A stretch of DNA of 64,000 nucleotides, from IMG/VR virus record IMGVR_UViG_3300012931_000759, positions 62,001-126,000 of that record; one strand, 5' to 3'. A model generated the notes under the pieces. It made no database searches and was not told where the DNA came from. It saw only the letters and a program-made list of their open reading frames with translations. The position numbers and the translations under genes are program-made. This document shows, piece after piece, positions 1,242-59,498 of this stretch. This DNA is from a virus. The stretch's first letter is position 1. Each line of letters begins with the position of its first letter.

Positions 1242-2050
1242 TGTCATTTGTGCGAAAAACTGCCGCCAGAAACAGGCGCACCAATCATATGGTGACGGCG
1301 TTTGGGCGGACTCAATGTATTGCCGCCTGGGTCGAAGAGAGCGGTTTGCCTTATCATACTGTCCGTGTTCGTTTGAAACTAGGCTGGAATACGGAAGATG
1401 CGGTATCATTGCCCGTTGGTGCCAACAGGTTTGGACGCACTGTAATTTTGCCTCTTACTTTTGCGGATCTGGTGTCGGATCCAACAGTATTGAAACAATT
1501 TAGGGCCAGAGAACGAGTACCGCTGTTATGTTCAACTTGTGGGATACCTTTCGATAAGTTGAGAGAAGCGCTGACACCCAGTGATCTGAAGAGAAGCGGC
1601 GTTTTCTGTTCCCGTAGTTGTGCAGGTAAGTTCGGTCGGCAGTCACAACTAGAAACAGTGGACTCGGTCGTTGGTCGACATTGTATTAATTGTGGCATTT
1701 GGAAACCTCTTATTAAATTTGGTGAGAGCCGAGTATGCTATACATGTCGCAACAGCATGCCGAAGGTTCGATATCACGAATATATAAGGCACGATAAACA
1801 TGGTTTTGGTTTAACATTTGATGAATTTATGAAATTCTGGCAACAGCCTTGTTGGTATTGTGGTTGTTCGATTACAACCATTGGCATCGATCGTATAGAT
1901 AATGCCCAAGGCCATGTGATGGGAAACTGTGTTTCCTGCTGTGCTCGATGTAACCGTATGAAAAGTAAATTCTCTCAGGAGGATTTTTTAGATCAATGTC
2001 GTCGCATTGTGGCGCAACATTCAAACACGGAGAATATACGTGATGCTTGA
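1241..2050 (+). CDS. HNH homing endonuclease
   Basis: The protein is 269 aa and starts at the ATG that overlaps the previous stop. It has CxxC pairs characteristic of zinc ribbons (CSTCG, CSRSC, CINCG, CYTC) and then a C-terminal HNH-type domain: WYCGCS, IDRIDN, MGNCVSCCARCNRMKS. The same IDR(I/V)(D/N)N and GNCVxCC pattern occurs in the minus-strand HNH gene at 24846-25400, so the two nucleases are related. It is AT-richer than its neighbours, as expected of a horizontally acquired free-standing homing gene. It sits between a hypothetical gene and the JAMM protease gene, whose ATG overlaps its last codons. Confidence 0.88.
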   Translation: MSFVRKTAARNRRTNHMVTAFGRTQCIAAWVEESGLPYHTVRVRLKLGWNTEDAVSLPVGANRFGRTVILPLTFADLVSDPTVLKQFRARERVPLLCSTCGIPFDKLREALTPSDLKRSGVFCSRSCAGKFGRQSQLETVDSVVGRHCINCGIWKPLIKFGESRVCYTCRNSMPKVRYHEYIRHDKHGFGLTFDEFMKFWQQPCWYCGCSITTIGIDRIDNAQGHVMGNCVSCCARCNRMKSKFSQEDFLDQCRRIVAQHSNTENIRDA

Positions 2051-2417
2051 AACGGCATTTGTTTTTACATGTGACGGATCGGTGTTGTATTGGCATTGTC
2101 CAATCGGACGCACTGGCGGTGCTTTGCCAGATTCCCGCAATCTTTGGGACATCCTTTGGGAGAACAGGGAACGGTTGGGTGGTATTGCTCACACACATCC
2201 TTGGTTTGGCGAACCTGTTCCCTCTGGAACAGATGTGACGACATTTGCCGCTGTTGAAGCGGGGCTGGGAAAACGGCTGGTGTGGCCAATCGTGACCATG
2301 AACCAGGTGAAAACATTTATGTGGGTGGGACCCGGCAAGCACGATTATCGGGCGGTTCCTTTCCTCAAAAGCGATGACATCTTTGACCTTCGAAGACTGT
2401 CGGAAAAAGGAGAATGA
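2043..2417 (+). CDS. JAMM/JAB (MPN) metalloprotease, ubiquitin-like cassette
   Basis: The protein is 124 aa. The JAMM zinc motif is clear: HTHPWFGEPVPSGTD, that is HxH, eight residues, then SxxD, with an upstream Glu in WDILWENRERLGG that could be the catalytic acid. JAB/MPN enzymes cleave ubiquitin-like proteins from their targets or mature their C termini. The phage tail JAB/NlpC protein is much larger, so this is not that type. The gene overlaps the next small ORF by ATGA and is followed by an E1/ThiF enzyme. This gene order implies a ubiquitin-like conjugation or sulfur-carrier role. The start is the ATG at 2043, with GGAG 11 bases upstream. Confidence 0.85.
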   Translation: MLETAFVFTCDGSVLYWHCPIGRTGGALPDSRNLWDILWENRERLGGIAHTHPWFGEPVPSGTDVTTFAAVEAGLGKRLVWPIVTMNQVKTFMWVGPGKHDYRAVPFLKSDDIFDLRRLSEKGE

Positions 2418-2419
2418 CA

Positions 2420-2683
2420 ATGGACGAGATCCAGGCTGGAATGGCGAGACTGAACATCACATGGCAAGGTAGCAATGGCGATCTACAAGACCCTGTGGCC
2501 TACGACTCTACCGATGTCGCTATCAAGCAGATGGCTGTCGAGGCGGTTCGCACTGGGTATGTTGCTGGTATTCAGGCTGATCCGAATGTCGATTTCACGG
2601 ACTTTGTGGTGGATCGGTTTGCGGCTACTGCCGAATTGCCCAACCGATTGTTTTTGAGAAGTAAGACGCCATTCGGGGCGTAG
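2420..2683 (+). CDS. Candidate ubiquitin-like (beta-grasp) small protein
   Basis: The protein is 87 aa. AGGAGA lies 6 bases before the ATG at 2420. The ATG at 2414 directly abuts this site and is less likely. Predicted order is two strands (LNITWQGSNG and a second), a helix (DVAIKQMAVEAVR), then strands around DFTDFVVDRFA and NRLFLRSKTPFG, which fits a beta-grasp fold. The C terminus is PFGA rather than GG, so trimming by the neighbouring JAMM protease to expose a C-terminal Gly would be needed. The call rests on position between JAMM and E1 genes and on the predicted strand pattern, not on a recognised motif. Confidence 0.55.
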   Translation: MDEIQAGMARLNITWQGSNGDLQDPVAYDSTDVAIKQMAVEAVRTGYVAGIQADPNVDFTDFVVDRFAATAELPNRLFLRSKTPFGA

Positions 2684-2695
2684 GACGAAGCGGAA

Positions 2696-2721
2696 CCCGA
2701 GGGGCAAATAAGTCCCTCGGG
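2696..2721 (+). other. 8-bp RNA hairpin between ubiquitin-like and E1 genes
   Basis: CCCGAGGG pairs perfectly with CCCTCGGG around a 10-nt loop. No U-run follows, so it is not a standard intrinsic terminator. It may set the relative expression of the two flanking genes or stabilise the upstream mRNA end. Confidence 0.5.
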
Positions 2722-2739
2722 TCGCTGAAAGGCTGAACG

Positions 2740-3321
2740 ATGGAAAAGACAGTCGTGATCGTTGGCGTTGGCGCGCTCGGCTCCCATGTGGTGCTTCTGG
2801 CGCGCAACTGGAAAAACCCCTTGCGTATTGCGGATTTCGACAGAATCGAGACCAAAAATATCCAGTCTCAGTTCCATAGCAAGATGGGACTCGGCAAAAA
2901 CAAAGCGCAGGCGCTCCAGCAAGCCCTACAAGGGCTGTTTGGAGTCAAGGTTGAGGCGATCTCGCACAAGTTGGCGGACGATAACGCCGAGAATTTACTC
3001 AAGTCGGCAACTCTTGTGATCGACTGTACGGATAACATTGCCGCTAGGCGCGTTATTCAGAAGTATGTCAGGAAGCACGACATCCCATGTCTCCACGGGG
3101 CGCTTTCGGCCGATGGGGCTTTCGGGCGCGTCGTCTGGGACGAGCACTTCACCGCCGACGAGGAGGGCAAGGAGGGGCAGGCGACCTGCGAGGACGGCGA
3201 GCAGCTCCCGATGTTTGCGCTCGCGGCGGCCCAGGTGGCGGTCGTCGCCCAGCGGTTCCTGAAGGATGGCACCAGGCAGAGTTTCCAAGTGATGCCTGTG
3301 GGCATAGTGAGGCTGGCATGA
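2740..3321 (+). CDS. E1/ThiF-like adenylyltransferase
   Basis: The protein is 193 aa. The N terminus has the Rossmann ATP site VIVGVGALGSH (GxGxxG), then DFDRIETKNI and a Gly-x-x-Lys region (GLGKNKAQ), matching the DxDxVxxxN..GxxK pattern of ThiF/MoeB/E1 enzymes that adenylate a C-terminal Gly. IDCTDN follows, as in the family. There is no CxxC zinc pair. Possible catalytic cysteines lie in IPCLHG and ATCEDG. It is shorter than MoeB (about 250 aa), so it is a minimal E1. It lies downstream of the JAMM and candidate ubiquitin-like genes and overlaps the next gene (ATGA). No E2 gene is visible. Confidence 0.88.
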   Translation: MEKTVVIVGVGALGSHVVLLARNWKNPLRIADFDRIETKNIQSQFHSKMGLGKNKAQALQQALQGLFGVKVEAISHKLADDNAENLLKSATLVIDCTDNIAARRVIQKYVRKHDIPCLHGALSADGAFGRVVWDEHFTADEEGKEGQATCEDGEQLPMFALAAAQVAVVAQRFLKDGTRQSFQVMPVGIVRLA

Positions 3322-6251: not shown

Positions 6252-6769
6252 ACATCTTCGCTGTCGATCCCGATCCCATTGTCTCGGCAAAGTCGCTGGT
6301 CGACAGGCACGTCGTCAAGATGATCCTGGAGTCGGTCCAGCTGATGTGCGTCGCGCACGCGGTCCATGGGCCGGTTCCCGAAGGCGTTTGGGACAGCCTC
6401 GGATGGCGGCACCACCCGTGCGCCAAGTGGACTGCGGCTTCTCTGTCCAACTACCGATGGCTGCTCGCGCACGCGGAAGGCCTGTGCGCCGAGTACCGGC
6501 ACCGGTACGGCAGGACGCACAAGCTGGAATCGGACGGGATGCTGGAAAGGCTGGCCGCAGCACCGCCGATATCGGATATCGGCCCGACGCCGTTCGCCGA
6601 GGCCACCGGAGACATCCACGATGGCGAGCCGGTGGCGACCTACAGGCGGTACTACATCGAGCACAAGAGTCACCTGATGGTCTGGACGCGGCGAGAGCCC
6701 CCGGACTGGATCAGGGCGGCCATGGCCGTCTCCAGGCAGGGGGACAGGTGGCTGGCCAAGCGGAGATGA
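6248..6769 (+). CDS. Conserved phage protein (MNIFAVDPDP / DRHVVKMILES family)
   Basis: The protein is 173 aa with its ATG overlapping the previous stop. The N terminus carries a pattern shared by a widespread uncharacterised phage family: MNIFxxDxDPxxxA, DxHVVKMILE, HPCAKW, LSNYRWL, YRHRYGRTHK and a C-terminal PPDWIR. Conserved His, Asp and Arg residues suggest an enzyme or nucleic-acid binding protein, but I know of no established activity. Confidence 0.75.
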   Translation: MNIFAVDPDPIVSAKSLVDRHVVKMILESVQLMCVAHAVHGPVPEGVWDSLGWRHHPCAKWTAASLSNYRWLLAHAEGLCAEYRHRYGRTHKLESDGMLERLAAAPPISDIGPTPFAEATGDIHDGEPVATYRRYYIEHKSHLMVWTRREPPDWIRAAMAVSRQGDRWLAKRR

Positions 6770-6770
6770 C

Positions 6771-7172
6771 ATGGACAAGGAACTCGACAAGCAGCTGTGC
6801 CTGGAATGCCCGAACCTGTACGCCGACCGGAACCTCTCCATCATGCAGACGTGTATGGCGTGGGGGTTCGACTGCATGGACGGGTGGTTCCCCATCATCC
6901 GCGACCTGTCGCTGAAGCTGGAGGCGATCATCGCCGCGATGCCGGAAGGTGAGCGCGGGGGATACAAAGCCGCCCAGGTCAAGGAGAAGTTCGGCACGCT
7001 GCGGTTCTACATGACCGCCGAGACCGACGAGATGGAGCGGCTCATCGGCGAGGCCGAGAGCGCTAGCGCCAGGACCTGCGAGTACTGCGGGCAGCCGGGA
7101 AAGCTGCGGACCAAGGGCTGGTTGTTCACCCTGTGCGACAAGTGTGACGAGGAGCGGCCATGGCGGAAGTGA
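6771..7172 (+). CDS. Conserved phage protein with C-terminal zinc knuckle
   Basis: The protein is 133 aa. It shows the phage-family signature QVKEKFGTLRFYM followed by a zinc-binding CEYCGQPG..TLCDKC pair near the C terminus. The N-terminal region has a CLECPNLY segment and a GWFPIIRDLSLKLEAI helix. The function of this common family is unknown. Its end overlaps the nucleoside hydrolase gene by 13 bases. Confidence 0.75.
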   Translation: MDKELDKQLCLECPNLYADRNLSIMQTCMAWGFDCMDGWFPIIRDLSLKLEAIIAAMPEGERGGYKAAQVKEKFGTLRFYMTAETDEMERLIGEAESASARTCEYCGQPGKLRTKGWLFTLCDKCDEERPWRK

Positions 7173-8041
7173 TGGACATCGTCCTCGACATGGAGACCGG
7201 CGATCCCGACGACTTCATGACCCTGCTGCTCCTGTTGGGGCACCCGAGGTCGAACCTGAAGGCCGTCACGGTGACGCCCGGCACGAGGGAGCAGATCGGC
7301 CTGGTCAGGTGGGCATGCGCCCAACTCGCGCCGGGCCGGTACATCCCGGTCGGCGCGTTCGACCCCACGCGGGACAAAAAGTGCGTCTCCTCCTGGCACT
7401 ACGAGGTCTACGGGCAGATCCCACCCAAGGATCCGGACGACCGGGGCGGTTTCGTCCTCAAGCGGTGCTGCGACGAGAACACGACGCTCGTCACCGGCGC
7501 GCCTCTGCGGAACATCGGCGTGGCGATGGACCTGGACTTCAGGGTCGGCCGATGGGTAGCGCAGGGCGGATTCGCGGGCGAGGGCGTGGTGCCGCCGGAG
7601 CGGCAGCTGGAGAAGTTCCGGGGCATGGTCGTCTGTCCGACCTACAACCTGAACGGCGACCCGAAGGCGGTCCTGCGAGCCCTGGAGTATGGTGGGATAG
7701 GACACAGGCGGTTCGTCTCCAAGAACGTCTGCCACGGAGTGGTGGCCGACCGCGCGCTGGTCGACAGGGTCGGGGCGGCGAAGACTCCGCATCTGGAACT
7801 GATCCACAGGGGCATGGAGGCCTACCTGTCCAAGGGACCGGTCGGCAAGAAGGCCGGAAAGAAGCTCCACGATCCGCTGGCGGCCTGCTGCGCGCTGACA
7901 CCGGAGATAGGGGAATGGGCCGAGGTCAAGCTGTTCCGGGAGAAGGGCCAGTGGGGCAGCGCTTTGAAGCCAGGCACGAACACCTGGATTATCACAGGTT
8001 TTGACAAAGAACGGTTCGTTTCAGTCCTAACTGAAGTTTGA
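7160..8041 (+). CDS. Nucleoside hydrolase-like protein (IUNH family)
   Basis: The protein is 293 aa. The N terminus MDIVLDMETGDPDDFMTLLL resembles the calcium-binding DxDxGxDD cluster of inosine-uridine preferring nucleoside hydrolases, which split nucleosides into base and ribose. An NxTLVTGAPLRN-type segment and HDPLAACCAL near residue 240 match the family's second metal Asp (HDPLA). The cluster here reads DMETGDPDD, two residues longer than usual, so activity should not be assumed. A role in nucleoside salvage or removal of a host signal is plausible. It is cytosolic. Confidence 0.82.
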   Translation: MAEVMDIVLDMETGDPDDFMTLLLLLGHPRSNLKAVTVTPGTREQIGLVRWACAQLAPGRYIPVGAFDPTRDKKCVSSWHYEVYGQIPPKDPDDRGGFVLKRCCDENTTLVTGAPLRNIGVAMDLDFRVGRWVAQGGFAGEGVVPPERQLEKFRGMVVCPTYNLNGDPKAVLRALEYGGIGHRRFVSKNVCHGVVADRALVDRVGAAKTPHLELIHRGMEAYLSKGPVGKKAGKKLHDPLAACCALTPEIGEWAEVKLFREKGQWGSALKPGTNTWIITGFDKERFVSVLTEV

Positions 8042-8116: not shown

Positions 8117-8803
8117 ATGAGACGGTTCACAGACAAGGAACTCAGCCAAGCGGTTAAGGACAGCCTATTCCTATTCCAGGTGATCCATAAGTTGGATCTG
8201 AACCCGAGCAAAACAACCTACTCGCGCATCAGGCACCTGATTCTCAAACTCGGTCTGGACACTTCGCATTGGACAGACGCCAGGACGATTCGGATCCTGC
8301 CTGACGAGCAAATTTTCGTCAAAGGATGCCGTGTTCCGCCTTCAACCGTGCGAAGGCGTTATGCGCAATTGGGACAGCCGTACCAATGTGCCGAATGCGG
8401 AATTTTCGAATGGCGCGGAGTTCAGTTGATTCTGGAATTGGATCACAAGAATGGAGATCGCAAGGACAACAGACTAGACAATCTGCGATGGCTGTGTCCA
8501 AATTGCCATAGCCTGACTTCGACATATTGCGGCAAAAATAAACCCCTACTGAAAAAGATCACTCATTGTGTCGAATGTGGAACGGCGGTTTCTAGGTATG
8601 CGACCAGGTGTCGACGATGCGCTGGCAATCTGATCGGCGCCACACGGATGAAGATCGAATGGCCTTCTGTTGACGATCTGATTCTGATGCTACAGAGAGA
8701 TTCATTGGCTACTGTGGCCGCACAGTTGGGCGTTTCATCTGCCGCTGTGAGAAAACATTTACTACATCGTCGCGGAGGGAAGAAAAATCCCAATGTGGCG
8801 TAA
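8117..8803 (+). CDS. HNH endonuclease with C-terminal helix-turn-helix
   Basis: The protein is 228 aa with AGGAGG upstream of the ATG. Its HNH core is in the middle: CAECGIFEW, LILELDHKNGDRKDNR, NLRWLCPNCHS. A CxxC pair (CVECG, CRRCAG) and a C-terminal helix-turn-helix (LATVAAQLGVSSAAVRKHL) follow, which would add sequence recognition. It lies directly before tRNA-Arg and tRNA-Asn, a common niche for homing genes. GC is lower than in the nucleoside hydrolase gene. Confidence 0.9.
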   Translation: MRRFTDKELSQAVKDSLFLFQVIHKLDLNPSKTTYSRIRHLILKLGLDTSHWTDARTIRILPDEQIFVKGCRVPPSTVRRRYAQLGQPYQCAECGIFEWRGVQLILELDHKNGDRKDNRLDNLRWLCPNCHSLTSTYCGKNKPLLKKITHCVECGTAVSRYATRCRRCAGNLIGATRMKIEWPSVDDLILMLQRDSLATVAAQLGVSSAAVRKHLLHRRGGKKNPNVA

Positions 8804-8807
8804 GCAT

Positions 8808-8880
8808 GCCCCCGTAGTCTACTGGATGAGGCGCTCGGCTACGGACCGAGTTTAAGCAGGTTCGATTCCTGCCGGGGGTA
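8808..8880 (+). tRNA. tRNA-Arg(ACG)
   Basis: Acceptor GCCCCCG/CGGGGGT with one G-U pair, anticodon arm CTCGG-CTACGGA-CCGAG giving ACG, T arm GCAGG-TTCGATT-CCTGC, discriminator A. No CCA. The acceptor is almost identical to those of the TAT and TAA tRNAs in this window. Confidence 0.93.
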
Positions 8881-8884
8881 CAAT

Positions 8885-9007
8885 TCAGGGATAGTTCAAG
8901 GGTAGAACGGACGGCTGTGGGCGTTCCTGCGGCCAGGGTTGTGGTGGGTCGGCACCGCCGATGCCCCTAACCGTCAAATGGGGGTTCGAATCCCTCTCCC
9001 TGAGCCA
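8885..9007 (+). tRNA. tRNA-Asn(GTT) interrupted by a 49-nt insertion in the anticodon
   Basis: Removing bases 8919-8967 leaves a normal 74-nt tRNA: acceptor TCAGGGA/TCCCTGA, D arm GTTC/GAAC, anticodon arm GACGG-CTGTTAA-CCGTC (anticodon GTT), T arm GGGGG-TTCGAAT-CCCTC, discriminator G and encoded CCA. T1-A72 and G73 agree with bacterial tRNA-Asn. The insertion falls between anticodon positions 35 and 36. It is GC-rich, its ends can pair (GGGC with GCCC), and it holds further hairpin potential (GGTG..CACC). It is far too short for a group I intron. Confidence 0.85.
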
Positions 9008-9683: not shown

Positions 9684-9763
9684 CGCGAGGGTGGTGTAAT
9701 GGCAGCCACGCCACGCCAGGTCGAGAGCCTGGACAGGTGCCGATTCGAATCCGGCCGGGAGCA
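9684..9763 (+). tRNA. Degenerate tRNA-like gene, possibly Leu(GAG)
   Basis: A perfect anticodon stem CCAGG/CCTGG holds the loop TCGAGAG (GAG if read at 34-36, with C at position 33). The T arm is GCCGA-TTCGAAT-CCGGC with one mismatch. A D-arm-like GTGG/CCAC is present, but the 3' acceptor strand CGGGAGC has no good 5' partner. It may be a relic or carry sequence errors. Confidence 0.4.
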
Positions 9764-9777
9764 CAAGGAGAAGTCGC

Positions 9778-52992: not shown

Positions 52993-53388
52993 ATGGAGAA
53001 TCAGTTGATCTATCCAGCCTGTAGGCAGGTCTGGGACGGCGATAGTAAGTATCAAATCTCAAAGATATCCAAGGAAATCGGAAGCGGTCTGAACGACAGC
53101 AGACCGAAGCTGGAAACGCTTCTCCTCGATGCCGAGATTGGAACGATCGTCGTCGAGCACAAGGACAGGCTAGCCCGCTTCGGCTTCAACTACATCCAGA
53201 AGATGCTCGAACGAAACGGAAGATCGATCGAAGTCGTGAACGAGGCGGAGAACGAGGAAGTCGACCTCATGTCCGATTTCGTCGCCATCATAACGAGTTT
53301 CACTGTAAGGCTCTACGGTCAGCGGAGAAGTCGGCGGAAGACCGAGAAGATCATCGAGGAACTGAAGCGGGAAGACAAGGACAACTGA
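52993..53388 (+). pseudogene. IS607-type serine recombinase TnpA, N-terminally truncated
   Basis: The frame encodes the C-terminal half of an IS607 resolvase-type transposase: SKEIGSGLNDSRPKLETLLL, TIVVEHKDRLARFGFNYIQK, SIEVVNEAENEEVDLMSDFV and AIITSFTVRLYGQRRSRR. The N-terminal MerR-like helix-turn-helix and the YxRVS catalytic Ser segment are missing, so it cannot catalyse transposition. It overlaps tnpB by ATG. The 57 bases between the tail gene stop and this ORF show no feature. Confidence 0.85.
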
Positions 53389-54608
53389 TGTTCCGCTCCA
53401 CAAGGACGACGCTGAAATTCGCGAATGTGGGAAAGCGGGAAGCCATCAAAGGCTTCATCGCAGAGTACCGCTCCGTCGTCTCGAAGTTCATCAAGATCCT
53501 CTGGGGACAGGACAAGATTCCTTCGCTTCTCCCAAAGGACACCACATCGCAAATCAAAACTTGGCTCTCGGCGAGAGCCGTCCAATGCGCAGGCAAGCAG
53601 GCTTCGGGAATCGTCAGGGGAACGAGACGCAAGCAGGAGAAGCGTCTTTTCATCCTAGACAGATTGAAAACGCAAGGAAACCGCAAGCAGGCAAGGAGAC
53701 TTCAAGCCATAATCGACAGGTTGGAAGCCTCCAAGCCAAACATCTCCCGCATCGAACCAGAACTCGACGAGAGGTTCGTCAAGCAGGACTGGGACAATCT
53801 GACATTCTTCGACGGAGTCGTGACTTTATCTTCGCTAGGCAACAGGTTGAATATCTCGATTCCCGTGAAGAGGACGAAGCATTTCAACAGGATGTTGGAA
53901 CGGGGAACGCTTGGCAAAGGAATCAGACTGTCTGAAGATTCGATCTCCTTTAACTTCAAAATCGAAGGAAACCCCAAGAAAGAAACCGGGGAGACCATTG
54001 GTCTCGACATTGGCGTCACGAATGTCTTCACGATGTCGAACGGAGTCACTTCGCAGAAGAACAAACATGGTCACGACCTCGCTTCGATCAACTTCATCCT
54101 GTCCAGGAAGACAAAAGGCTCCAAGGCGTTCAAAAGAACGCAGGAGCACAGGAAGAACTACATCAACTGGTCGCTGAACCAAGTGAACCTCGACGGGATC
54201 AAGACCCTTCGGGTCGAGGGCATCAAGCATCTTCGGTTTGGCAAGAGATCGTCGAGATACTTGAGCCACTTCACATACACCGAGATCTTCGGGAAAATAG
54301 GGTCGTTGGCTTTCGACAACGGTGTCCGCTTGGAAAAAGTCAATCCGACCTACACATCCCAAAGGTGTAGCAGGTGTGGCTGGGTGCGCAGCACGAATCG
54401 GAAGGGAAAGCAGTTCAGGTGTGTCAAGTGCGGTTTCGCATTGGATGCCGACTTGAATGCTTCCCTAAACATTTGTGCCGATCTTCGTCCCATTGGAACG
54501 AAAGAACGGCTGTTTCACAAGAACAGGAAAGGTTTCTGTTGGAGCGAAGCAGGGAAGGAACCTATAGTTCCTTCTGCCCAAAAACCTGATGGCAATAAAC
54601 TGCCATAA
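53388..54608 (+). CDS. tnpB: TnpB RNA-guided nuclease (IS607-associated)
   Basis: The protein is 406 aa, full length for TnpB. RuvC residues are visible: GETIGLDIGVTNVFTMS (Asp), KTLRVEGIKHLRFG (Glu) and GFALDADLNASLNICADL (Asp), with the C-terminal zinc finger CSRCGWVRSTNR...CVKCGF. The N-terminal helical and basic region binds the guide RNA in known TnpBs. A guide (omega) RNA would overlap its 3' end and extend to about 54670. GC-rich codon use resembles the phage genes, so it may be long resident. Confidence 0.93.
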   Translation: MFRSTRTTLKFANVGKREAIKGFIAEYRSVVSKFIKILWGQDKIPSLLPKDTTSQIKTWLSARAVQCAGKQASGIVRGTRRKQEKRLFILDRLKTQGNRKQARRLQAIIDRLEASKPNISRIEPELDERFVKQDWDNLTFFDGVVTLSSLGNRLNISIPVKRTKHFNRMLERGTLGKGIRLSEDSISFNFKIEGNPKKETGETIGLDIGVTNVFTMSNGVTSQKNKHGHDLASINFILSRKTKGSKAFKRTQEHRKNYINWSLNQVNLDGIKTLRVEGIKHLRFGKRSSRYLSHFTYTEIFGKIGSLAFDNGVRLEKVNPTYTSQRCSRCGWVRSTNRKGKQFRCVKCGFALDADLNASLNICADLRPIGTKERLFHKNRKGFCWSEAGKEPIVPSAQKPDGNKLP

Positions 54609-57600: not shown

Positions 57601-58830
57601 CTCACCATCGACGCTTACGGCGAAGCAAAGGTGAGTTCTGGCGACACGACGTTCGGATACCTACAGGACAAGGTTTCTGCCGGGTCACACATTACGGCCA
57701 CCAAATTGAACTCTGGTGGGAATGAATTGCTTCAATTGGCTGTCAATGTAGCGGGTTTTGACGGCTATAATATGAAGGTAAGTGGAACTGATACTACACC
57801 TGCCTTCTTACAAAATAAGATCTCGGCAGGTGCGCACATTGTCGCCACAAAGTTAAACTCTGGCAGCAACGAGTTGCTCAGCCTGGCGGTCGATGTTACG
57901 AACATTGATGGGTACAAGACCAAGATCAGCGCCACTGACACGACGACTGACTATCTACAGGCGAAATTGGCTGCTGGTAACAACATTGTCCTGACCAAAA
58001 ATAACCCTGGTGGGAACGAGACACTTACGATCGCCACTGCCCAGATCCTGAAGCTTGACGAGCAGGTCGCCGATCCCGTACAGTTCCCGAACGATGGCTA
58101 TTTGTACACCAAGGATGACACCGGAAACACTGAACTATTCTATAGGGATAGCTACGGTAACATCATACAGATCTCCAAGGTTGGCAGGCTAGACCTTCCG
58201 GATGGCTATATTAGCTTCAGGTACGACGAGATGCCGCCTTCCTCGACGACGGGGAGTGAGACCGCCATGACGCTGGCGGCCGTACCGGTCGAGGTACACG
58301 CACTTCATGTTTTCCGGAATGGCGCCCTGATGCGTCCGGTTAATGTACTTGGTCCGAGCAGGCAGGAGTATACTCTGTCTGGGGACCAGGTGTTGTTCCA
58401 GTCGACAGGCAGTCCAGGAGACTGGTACTCTGCCATGTACATCGACGGATACATGCTAGTCGGGGCCGGAGGTAGCGTCAGACAGAACGTCGCCATGGCG
58501 AACAACCAGAGCACGGACTCGTCCTCCGATATCGTAGTTGGCACGTTTCCGATCGCCGCCGGAGACTACCCATCCAGGACCACCAAGTTCCTGGCCACGG
58601 CCTTCGTGACCGGCGCTGGCTTGACCGGATACGTGAAGCTGTACAATCTTACCGACAACGTGCTGGTGAGTTCGTTCACGTTTACCGGGGTGGCGACAGC
58701 CAAGCAGATCTCGTCAGCTCTGAACCTGCCGGTTGCGGAGAAGATATATGAGATCAGGATCAGCGTGACTGGGGGCACGGGTCCCAGCGATCGCGTTGTG
58801 TGTATGTGGGCCGGACTACAGATCGGCTGA
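54694..58830 (+). CDS. Giant repetitive tail fibre/adhesin-like protein
   Basis: The protein is 1378 aa from ATG 54694 (GGAGG about 12 bases upstream; a TTG at 54676 is possible). The N terminus mirrors the 51253 protein (AAIVINQAGKPPGLPS, NDNTGIVSWLWEF, GSYLIRLTVDG), then WGGYRITALGGLQDEGSLRL. From about residue 330 it is built of repeats of (V)KVRVDDxxDGYLHxKLLTG / FAIGNPGGNETLTIDAYGE / KVSSxDTTFGYLxDK, with two near-identical 232-residue super-repeats. The C-terminal ~180 residues hold a jelly-roll-like GDYPSRTTKFLATAFVTGAG and the shared VCMWAGLQIG end. It is probably a long fibre with a C-terminal receptor-binding or cap domain. Confidence 0.82.
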   Translation: MVLAAIVINQAGKPPGLPSQSRDDLNLGTSVSLTNNDNTGIVSWLWEFVSVPVGSSAVISGLALPSASFVPDVRGSYLIRLTVDGSPSNPAMDTRIAAVRTAFLGIRKPATSEQLQFDPVDGWSAAQQAMIDAIDTDAALSLKRTGANSPTADINWGGYRITALGGLQDEGSLRLGETVDPSTISDKGFVYAKDDSGDTELFYMDDGGAVVQITKDGQLDVLSLQGDTLPTKAADGFLKRNAANSAWEEVPYGTTSNTVCQGDDSRLSDSRPPTGTASGQLGGTYPGPDVRGLREISGPTLLTLGAISDGQALVRNGSTIVGAPLSTGGMVKIRVDDVADGYLHDKLLTGQGLSFAIGNPGGNETLTIDAYGETKVSSADTTLGYLFDKLQPGVGINLSKQNPGGNETILVSSTASGTGGLVKVRVDDATDGYLYEKLLTGPGLKFAIGNPGGSETLTIDAYGEAKVSSDDTTFGYLSDKIVAGANITLNVLSPGSNETIQIVGSPSNTLGQSYNQGGPGAGRVILVDAGQVEMNAAGGSALKLDGYLGFTEIAIPTSVANRGFVYVVDDLGTAELCYRDDQNRTIQITKSGMIDASFVNADSYQAKVSSVDTTFGYLFNKLQPGAGISLAKQSPGGNETILISSTASGTGGKVKVRVDDLSDGYLHGKLLTGPGLKFAIGNPGGNETLTIDAYGETKVSSDDTTFGYLSDKIVAGANITLNVLSSGSNETLQVVGLPSNTLGQSYNQGGPGAGRVIMVDAGAVEMDAAGGDALNLDGYLSFAEIPTPVSVASHGFVYVTNAEGVAELCYRDDDSRTVQITKSGMINSSFVNADSYQAKVSATDTTPGYLQTKISAGAHLLATKLNSGSNELLNLAVDVTNIDGYKTKVSATDTTTDYLFNKLQAGSGIGLVKQNGGGNENILISSTATGTGGKVKVRVDDVADGYLHAKLLTGLGLTFAIGNPGGNETLTIDAYGEAKVSSGDTTFGYLQDKVSAGSHITATKLNSGGNELLQLAVNVAGFDGYNMKVSGTDTTPAFLQNKISAGAHIVATKLNSGSNELLSLAVDVTNIDGYKTKISATDTTTDYLQAKLAAGNNIVLTKNNPGGNETLTIATAQILKLDEQVADPVQFPNDGYLYTKDDTGNTELFYRDSYGNIIQISKVGRLDLPDGYISFRYDEMPPSSTTGSETAMTLAAVPVEVHALHVFRNGALMRPVNVLGPSRQEYTLSGDQVLFQSTGSPGDWYSAMYIDGYMLVGAGGSVRQNVAMANNQSTDSSSDIVVGTFPIAAGDYPSRTTKFLATAFVTGAGLTGYVKLYNLTDNVLVSSFTFTGVATAKQISSALNLPVAEKIYEIRISVTGGTGPSDRVVCMWAGLQIG
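55816..56511 (+). repeat. Super-repeat copy 1 (696 bp)
   Basis: It starts at AAGGTCAGC (KVSSADTTLGYL) and ends before AAGGTCAGT at 56512. Its segment TTGTAGCCGGGGCAAACATAA recurs exactly 696 bases downstream. It codes for 232 residues with the same order of modules as copy 2. Confidence 0.85.
56512..57207 (+). repeat. Super-repeat copy 2 (696 bp)
   Basis: In-frame tandem copy of 55816-56511, with conserved phrases such as SYNQGGPGAGRV, ELCYRDD and TKSGMI. Differences are mainly at third codon positions, implying an old duplication under protein-level selection. A shorter series of related modules continues to about 58070. Confidence 0.85.
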
Positions 58831-58883: not shown

Positions 58884-59498
58884 ATGACACTCAAATACGA
58901 CCAGTTGGCCGACGCATTGGCCAAACTTAAGTTCCCGGAGCAGGGGAGCGATCCTACGCCGTATGCGAACGACGGGTACATGTACTCGAAGGATGTGGCC
59001 GGGGTCACCGAGCTCCATTATATGGACGACAGCGGGGATATCACTAGGCTGACCGACGACGGCTATGTGGGTCCGCACCATAGGCTACTGTCGGTCCGGA
59101 CAAGGGTTGGTGATCCGGCGGCCGATCCCCCGAAAGGGTTCCTGTACACCAAGCTCAGCGGCGTAGGCCAGGTCGAATTGTTCTATATGAACGGTTCCGG
59201 CGGCGTGTCGCAGCTCACGGCGGATGGATATCTCGATGTGGGTAAAGCGCACGACGACAGCTTAGATGCAGTCGGAGGTGAGACCTATCTTGCTCTGACT
59301 GCTGCGCCGCAGTTTGCCTCTGGGAAAGCCTCGGGTCGTAAACTGGATGTGTACCGCAATGGCTTACTGCTGAAGTGGGCGGCCGCGCCTGTCGGCAACA
59401 GTCAATGGAAATACAACGCTGGAGCGCAGCAGGTTGAGTTTGGAGGATCGCTGGAAGCCACAGATTGGATCCGGGCGGTATACAAATCGTACTCCTAA
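58884..59498 (+). CDS. Tail-associated structural-like protein
   Basis: The protein is 204 aa with GGAGG before the ATG. The N terminus (KYDQLADALAKLKFPEQGSD, YANDGYMYSKDVAGVTELHY) shares the FVYxKxxxGxxELxY module found in both large tail-like proteins. The C terminus (RKLDVYRNGLLLKWAA) resembles LHVFRNGALM of the 54694 protein. Likely a short fibre or an adaptor of the same structure. Confidence 0.7.
   Translation: MTLKYDQLADALAKLKFPEQGSDPTPYANDGYMYSKDVAGVTELHYMDDSGDITRLTDDGYVGPHHRLLSVRTRVGDPAADPPKGFLYTKLSGVGQVELFYMNGSGGVSQLTADGYLDVGKAHDDSLDAVGGETYLALTAAPQFASGKASGRKLDVYRNGLLLKWAAAPVGNSQWKYNAGAQQVEFGGSLEATDWIRAVYKSYS

Follow-up and report, generated by a model that had tools for sequence, protein, structure and literature searches.

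The 64,000-nucleotide (nt) stretch of DNA analysed here, referred to throughout as the window, comprises positions 62001-126000 of the 340,392-bp virus record IMGVR_UViG_3300012931_000759 (G000), a giant bacteriophage, and carries at window positions 8885-9007 on the plus strand a tRNA-Asn(GTT) gene with encoded CCA that is split inside its anticodon by a 49-nt insert (8919-8967). This insert can be interpreted as a miniature tRNA lacking the anticodon arm and, judged by its architecture, the gene is a member of a recurrent phage class in which one tRNA gene is nested within another. The geometry suggests a splicing route in which RNase P and tRNA 3' processing would excise the inner element and a phage Rnl1-type RNA ligase would reseal the halves of tRNA-Asn(GUU), a reading to which we assign a probability of about 0.6.

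The outer gene is a complete tRNA apart from the interruption. The Rfam tRNA model RF00005 matched 8885-9004 at 51.7 bits (cut-off 29) with 52 nt unaligned in the anticodon loop, and among all deletions of 40-59 nt the removal of 8919-8967 was the sole placement that gave back GACGG-CTGTTAA-CCGTC, which puts the insert between U35 and U36, within the anticodon itself. A preliminary description of this locus, made from the letters alone, had given exactly these limits for gene and insert. The 5' exon (8885-8918, plus strand; RF00005 and ARAGORN on the joined exons) comprises the acceptor 5' strand, the D arm, the anticodon stem 5' strand and C32, U33, G34 and U35, and the 3' exon (8968-9007, plus strand; Rfam and deletion placement) comprises U36, A37 and A38, the anticodon stem 3' strand, the T arm, the acceptor 3' strand, G73 and CCA. 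All outer stems are intact, including the acceptor TCAGGGA/TCCCTGA, the D stem GTTC/GAAC and the T stem GGGGG/CCCTC (one G-U pair), as are U33, A37, G73 and CCA, so the earlier statement that everything outside the insertion is preserved was right. U1-A72, G73 and the GUU anticodon, as is fitting for tRNA-Asn, recur in the other nested tRNA-Asn genes. ARAGORN called the joined exons tRNA-Asn(gtt), again as described beforehand for the sequence freed of its insert; the unspliced gene received no call by default and was taken for 'His with intron' under the -i option. The 340,392-bp record yielded no further credible tRNA-Asn, and an ARAGORN tRNA-Asn at genome position 221363 (minus strand) lies inside an open reading frame (ORF) and was regarded as a false positive.

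The insert, an anticodon-less tRNA-like element on the plus strand between nt 35 and 36, has the layout GGGCGTT-CCTGCGGCCAGGGTTGT-GGTGG-GTCGGCA-CCGCC-GATGCCC-C. The acceptor-like 5' strand GGGCGTT (8919-8925) pairs with the 3' strand GATGCCC over 7 bp, two of them G-U (8960-8966), and a 1-nt discriminator-like C completes this 3' segment (8960-8967). A D-arm-like hairpin, CCTG-CGGC-CAGG (8926-8937), is found when the insert is folded in ViennaRNA with the outer tRNA pairs enforced, and a T-arm-like hairpin, GGTGG-GTCGGCA-CCGCC (8943-8959), has the place and size of the T arms of other nested elements, with a diverged T loop and an alternative register of 6-bp stem and 6-nt loop. The 7-bp acceptor-like stem is directly stacked on the 5-bp/7-nt T-arm-like hairpin, which makes 12 bp. 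G1 of the inner stem, preceded by U at -1, is the predicted RNase P site, and the 3' cut is predicted after the terminal C. The ends of the mini-tRNA are thus the ends of the intron, first base on first base and last base on last base, and excision leaves 4+3 nt, CTGTTAA, an exact 7-nt anticodon loop. Both stems of the insert were matched in 0.007% (7e-5) of 200,000 dinucleotide shuffles, and the fold with the outer tRNA enforced, consisting of acceptor, D-like and T-like hairpins, scored -51.0. The preliminary description had noticed the paired ends as a possible extension of the anticodon helix; the pairing is real, but what it forms is the acceptor stem within a tRNA-like inner fold. Likewise, a novel mini-intron with an undefined splicing route was the nearest of the three options it offered, and the tRNA-like nature of the insert had been missed.

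The same phage carries a second nested tRNA (genome 56024-56139; L009:6024-6139). It has a 44-nt insert in the anticodon loop, in which a 7-bp stem, GTTGATG/CATCAGC, carries a perfect T arm, GTTGG-TTCGATT-CCAAC, stacked upon it. This gene, with its canonical inner T arm, prompted the same reading of the window insert.

Genes of this architecture recur among viruses. The pattern used to search IMG/VR specified D-stem letters, then CT, TTCRANT for the inner part, AA and finally an outer T arm, with outer acceptor and anticodon stems not demanded. Of the 65 stretches retrieved, 42 were interrupted tRNAs in which both the acceptor and the anticodon stem pair, amounting to 34 distinct loops; most matches beyond the confirmed set were set aside as intact tRNAs that have another T arm close by. 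A second scan looked for tRNA-Asn(GTT) with any 28-58-nt insert, and most interrupted viral tRNA-Asn genes contained an inner T arm although none was demanded (exceptions L252 and L256/L264). The nested class was defined by a paired outer anticodon stem, about 43-76 nt inserted into the anticodon loop, a 7-bp acceptor-like stem stacked on a 5-bp/7-nt T-arm-like hairpin within the insert, and an exact 7-nt loop after removal at inner G1 and N73/N76. In the pooled set, window included, 29 distinct loops on 43 records leave exactly 7 nt after removal of G1 to N73 (9 loops) or N76 (20 loops, the tail being literally NCCA in 8), although the IMG/VR records are partly near-duplicates and the class sequences are not independent events. 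Their outer identities are Asn (17), Arg(TCT) (4), Lys(TTT) (4), Ile, Val and others; outer stems and anticodons are intact and decodable in 29/29, ARAGORN called a tRNA for every spliced form (29/29), and the inner elements mostly lack an anticodon arm. The base before the inner cut is U in 26/29 and the base after it G in 25/29, in agreement with the preferences of bacterial RNase P. The class-typical inner T loop, TTCRANN/TGCRANN, was not required for the window, and its GTCGGCA departs from it.

Several members are informative individually. In L154 and L117 a full tRNA-Phe lies inside tRNA-Arg(TCT), ending in CCA in L154; this inner tRNA-Phe has ~85% identity to a stretch of the Burkholderia phage BcepSauron and ~79% to the annotated tRNA-Phe of Caulobacter phages. 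In the homologous tRNA-Lys genes of L119 and L147 the junction is shifted by one base, and CTTTTAA is left in both. A nested tRNA-Asn is conserved in L134 and the cultured Agrobacterium phage Atu_ph07 (82.6% over 98%). The genome record of Atu_ph07 (MF403008) contains nested tRNAs (Asn and Lys; 323905-324023 and 68159-68280, minus strand) that are not annotated as tRNA, and one of our entries for this phage, a tRNA-Lys taken as Thr, probably has its register wrong. Apart from the two nested genes the same record holds an annotated T4-like RNA ligase, and the question is therefore testable now.

Controls on the class support selection on its geometry. When the 3' part was fixed and the 5' part shuffled, the exact length arose in 13% and exact length with equally good pairing in 1.2%, compared with 26/26 in a set picked for exactness; prior to that selection, 26 of the 38 distinct viral loops tested were exact. 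Furthermore, the inner stems of seven nested tRNA-Asn genes show double changes at 10/11 pairs, with a covariation of 0.90 against 0.30 in shuffled and at most 0.20 in slid controls. The first pattern retrieved 55 stretches from 84,980 cellular genomes, in which the interrupted matches were mostly archaeal introns or partial tandem tRNA duplications, and only two of the 55, on contigs of metagenome-assembled genomes (L206 and L240), have the viral-type look. In terms of sequence, these comparisons establish the nested geometry, the coincidence of mature ends with exon borders, and the recurrence and covariation of the arrangement in other phages. The preliminary description had proposed looking for the same split in related phages: IMG/VR yielded neither a close orthologue of this tRNA-Asn gene nor an empty site, but the architecture itself is present in many phages. 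In addition, BLAST of the locus against annotated phages returned no relative, the tRNA-Asn of phages G004 and G006 is uninterrupted, and the insert is not shared by the phage's relatives by topoisomerase and terminase, where their tRNAs were readable.

Cleavage, ligation and use in decoding are what we infer from this architecture. Host RNase P would recognise the inner acceptor/T stack and cut before inner G1, so that U35 would end in a 3'-OH; the second cut, by RNase Z or another tRNA 3'-processing activity, would fall after inner N73 (N76 in the CCA-type members) and give U36 a 5'-phosphate; and the tRNA halves, held together by the outer stems, would be joined at U35 and U36 by the phage Rnl1-like ligase to give tRNA-Asn. 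Products of RNase P and tRNase Z carry 3'-OH and 5'-phosphate, ends that an ATP-dependent 5'-3' ligase joins directly. They would suit Rnl1 with no healing kinase or phosphatase needed. In this regard, RNase P works as a ruler that runs from the elbow along the stacked T stem and acceptor (PMC4810234), the top half of the tRNA is the recognition target of RNase P and tRNase Z (PMC3978253), and T4 Rnl1 ligates the two halves of a tRNA at the anticodon loop (PMC3400036).

A candidate ligase is present in this phage. An Rnl1-type RNA ligase at genome 11099-12598 (PF09511, E=1e-10; phrog_562, E=1e-32) matches T4 Rnl1 PDB structures and has a KEDGS that fits the KxDG motif, and genes for RlaP (1994-3190), a P-loop kinase of the AAA_33 family (6714-7382) and a CYTH protein (8144-8671; all genome coordinates) lie within ~10 kb of it. 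This homologue was found by a direct scan of ORFs near RlaP after being missed by the six-frame family search, so the numbers of ligases counted in other phages are to be taken as minimum values. The ATP-dependent ligase encoded at genome 30049-31467 proved to be a DNA ligase, and family searches found no RtcB in this phage. The presence of the Rnl1 gene is permissive, not diagnostic, for nested tRNA splicing.

Several observations weigh against the proposed route. Large phages without confirmed nested tRNAs encode RNA ligases at about the same frequency (PF09511 8/26 vs 5/10 and PF09414 above cut-off 15/26 vs 5/10 in the two groups), and ligase enrichment was dropped as support since the control set had a similar frequency. 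The unconstrained ViennaRNA optimum of the window gene, -54.5, is a different fold in which the anticodon stem is broken, and the bare nested model scores -44.4. Given the window's T arm, an equally good acceptor pairing occurs somewhere in 6% of shuffles. The T loop GTCGGCA lacks U54 and A58 and is the most diverged of the class; it is the weakest point of the insert's class membership and makes recognition by RNase P and RNase Z less sure for this gene. Additionally, some nested genes are off by one (L153 and genome 56024, where excision at the equivalent points leaves 8 nt), L124, L168 and Lak have extra 5' intron sequence, and some phage tRNAs carry non-tRNA-like inserts (Arg in G004, Glu in G006, and L256); a single mechanism therefore fails to cover all of them. 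For the broader proposition, that phages have repeatedly, and mostly in tRNA-Asn, evolved a tRNA-in-tRNA intron spliced by RNase P/RNase Z and an Rnl1-type ligase without a dedicated endonuclease, we consider the chances evenly balanced.

The insertion may instead have killed the tRNA, one of the options of the preliminary description, leaving a pseudogene with a recently inserted tRNA fragment while the host tRNA-Asn is used. The degraded look of other tRNAs in this phage (genome 53731 and 57872), the diverged inner T loop and the expectation that host tRNA-Asn should suffice are compatible with this, but the outer stems, U33, A37, G73 and CCA have all survived and the 7-nt remainder is exact. 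Moreover, recurrence in many phages, class-wide exact 7-nt loops and covariation on both sides need selection on inner and outer RNAs alike, and conservation of the nested tRNA-Asn in L134 and Atu_ph07 points the same way, so we regard a dead gene as unlikely. It is also improbable that an archaeal/eukaryal-type endonuclease or an anticodon nuclease makes the cuts and RtcB, or Pnkp with a ligase, seals them: the position of the insert in the anticodon, the RtcB encoded by the relative G006 with its non-tRNA-like insert, and the RlaP and P-loop kinase near the ligase would fit, whereas RtcB was not found in this phage, the junctions run from anticodon stem to loop to inner stem with no bulge-helix-bulge, and such an intron would not predict tRNA-like inserts ending in NCCA.

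We likewise think it improbable that the insert is retained as a second tRNA-like head in the anticodon loop, acting as bait for anticodon nucleases or as an RNA without a decoding function. Phage tRNAs are reported to evade tRNA-targeting defences through anticodon-loop mutations (PMC10264068), and the insert does hide the anticodon; retention nevertheless gives no reason for a selected, perfect 7-nt loop with a sensible anticodon after excision, or for inserts that are complete tRNA-Phe, one with CCA (L154). The inner mini-tRNA could also be the product under selection, or else a selfish element resembling a tRNA, with the outer tRNA as a landing site whose cleaved halves are not rejoined. 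Strong covariation of the inner elements and the similar ligase frequencies in the large-phage tallies speak for this, but it sits poorly with outer genes that are decodable in every distinct loop and with inner elements that mostly lack an anticodon arm and hence any decoding use, and we hold it to be very improbable. Lastly, the preliminary description had raised a deleted group I remnant. This finds no support, as Rfam shows tRNA only and the insert forms a full structure of a different type.

Group I introns of bacterial and phage tRNAs also interrupt the anticodon region, but they are much longer and have a conserved catalytic core (P3-P8). No such intron matched Rfam in the window at the gathering threshold and, as had been pointed out beforehand, 49 nt is far below their size and too short for the core. 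Archaeal and eukaryal introns (EndA/TSEN) are likewise short, lie in the anticodon loop and need cutting and ligation; their usual site is 37/38, 3' of the anticodon, whereas the nested class is interrupted at 34-36, within it. A bulge-helix-bulge intron was rejected on the fold with the outer tRNA enforced and on inspection of the junctions, the insert being tRNA-like instead. The intervening sequence of a circularly permuted tRNA gene (PMC3978253) connects the two ends of a single tRNA, while the nested class has a second tRNA-like unit inside the anticodon and needs a separate ligase. T4 Pnkp/Rnl1 repair (PMC3400036) resembles the proposed route in that an Rnl1-type ligase, of which a homologue is encoded here, reseals an anticodon-loop break; in T4 the break is nuclease damage and its ends are healed, whereas here it would be programmed and its ends ligation-ready.

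Introns in phage tRNAs are already on record. In the available text of Devoto et al. 2019 (PMC6784885), Lak megaphage tRNAs contain short inserts, 'enigmatic introns', one possibly encoding a tRNA, for which no excision route is proposed. In our analysis the Lak-A2 insert holds a T arm and an 8-bp acceptor-like stem, but it is 87 nt long with ~30 extra nt on the 5' side, hence not exact, and Lak phages appear unrelated to the phages that carry the nested class. A literature search that covered few subscription journals found nothing on nested tRNA introns or on an RNase P route. What we propose as new is therefore the nested geometry and the splicing route, phage tRNA introns as such being known.

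Other features of the locus and of the phage tRNAs were also recorded. An intact tRNA-Arg(ACG) (8808-8881, plus strand; ARAGORN and Rfam) lies 3 nt 5' of the tRNA-Asn gene, and directly upstream of the pair is an HNH endonuclease ORF (8117-8803, plus strand; phrog_10822, E=3e-39; Pfam HNH_3), possibly a homing endonuclease. A tRNA-like stretch at 9693-9767, with a T arm GCCGATTCGAATCCGGC and a stem-loop CCAGG-TCGAGAG-CCTGG, may be a degraded tRNA; it was called neither by ARAGORN nor by Rfam at the gathering threshold. A TnpB/Cas12f-like transposase ORF is found at window 53388-54608. Outside the window, five tRNA-like genes (genome 53583-53699, about 53840-53961, 57872-57978, 57982-58117 and 58988-59126; L009) share an insert of another type, GCTTC-N4-TCGG-hairpin-CCA-N5-GAAGC-CNACAAGC, located between the anticodon (or D) arm and the T arm; two of them have 8-nt anticodon loops and two seem to have no anticodon arm. 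In related phages, non-tRNA-like anticodon-loop inserts occur in a tRNA-Arg(TCT) (L065:2597-2712, 39 nt), ~400 nt from an RNA ligase gene, and in a tRNA-Glu(CTC) (L068:2230-2340, 37 nt), whose phage encodes RtcB. Related phages also have tRNAs with a CTA anticodon, labelled 'Pyl' by ARAGORN (L065:12253-12328 and L066:1867-1944), which are likely amber suppressors.

The nested geometry offers a concrete and cheap-to-test splicing route for phage tRNA introns that have been termed 'enigmatic' since 2019, and it relies on enzymes of the bacterial hosts together with a ligase found in many large phages. It would explain why standard annotation overlooks nested tRNAs. If the route is true, it would be an undescribed way of intron removal, by bacterial tRNA-trimming enzymes and a phage RNA ligase, and would form an RNA splicing class of its own next to the group I/II, spliceosomal and bulge-helix-bulge types. 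It would also give phage RNA ligases a biological role besides repair, and provide an example of a host-processing signal turned into an intron.
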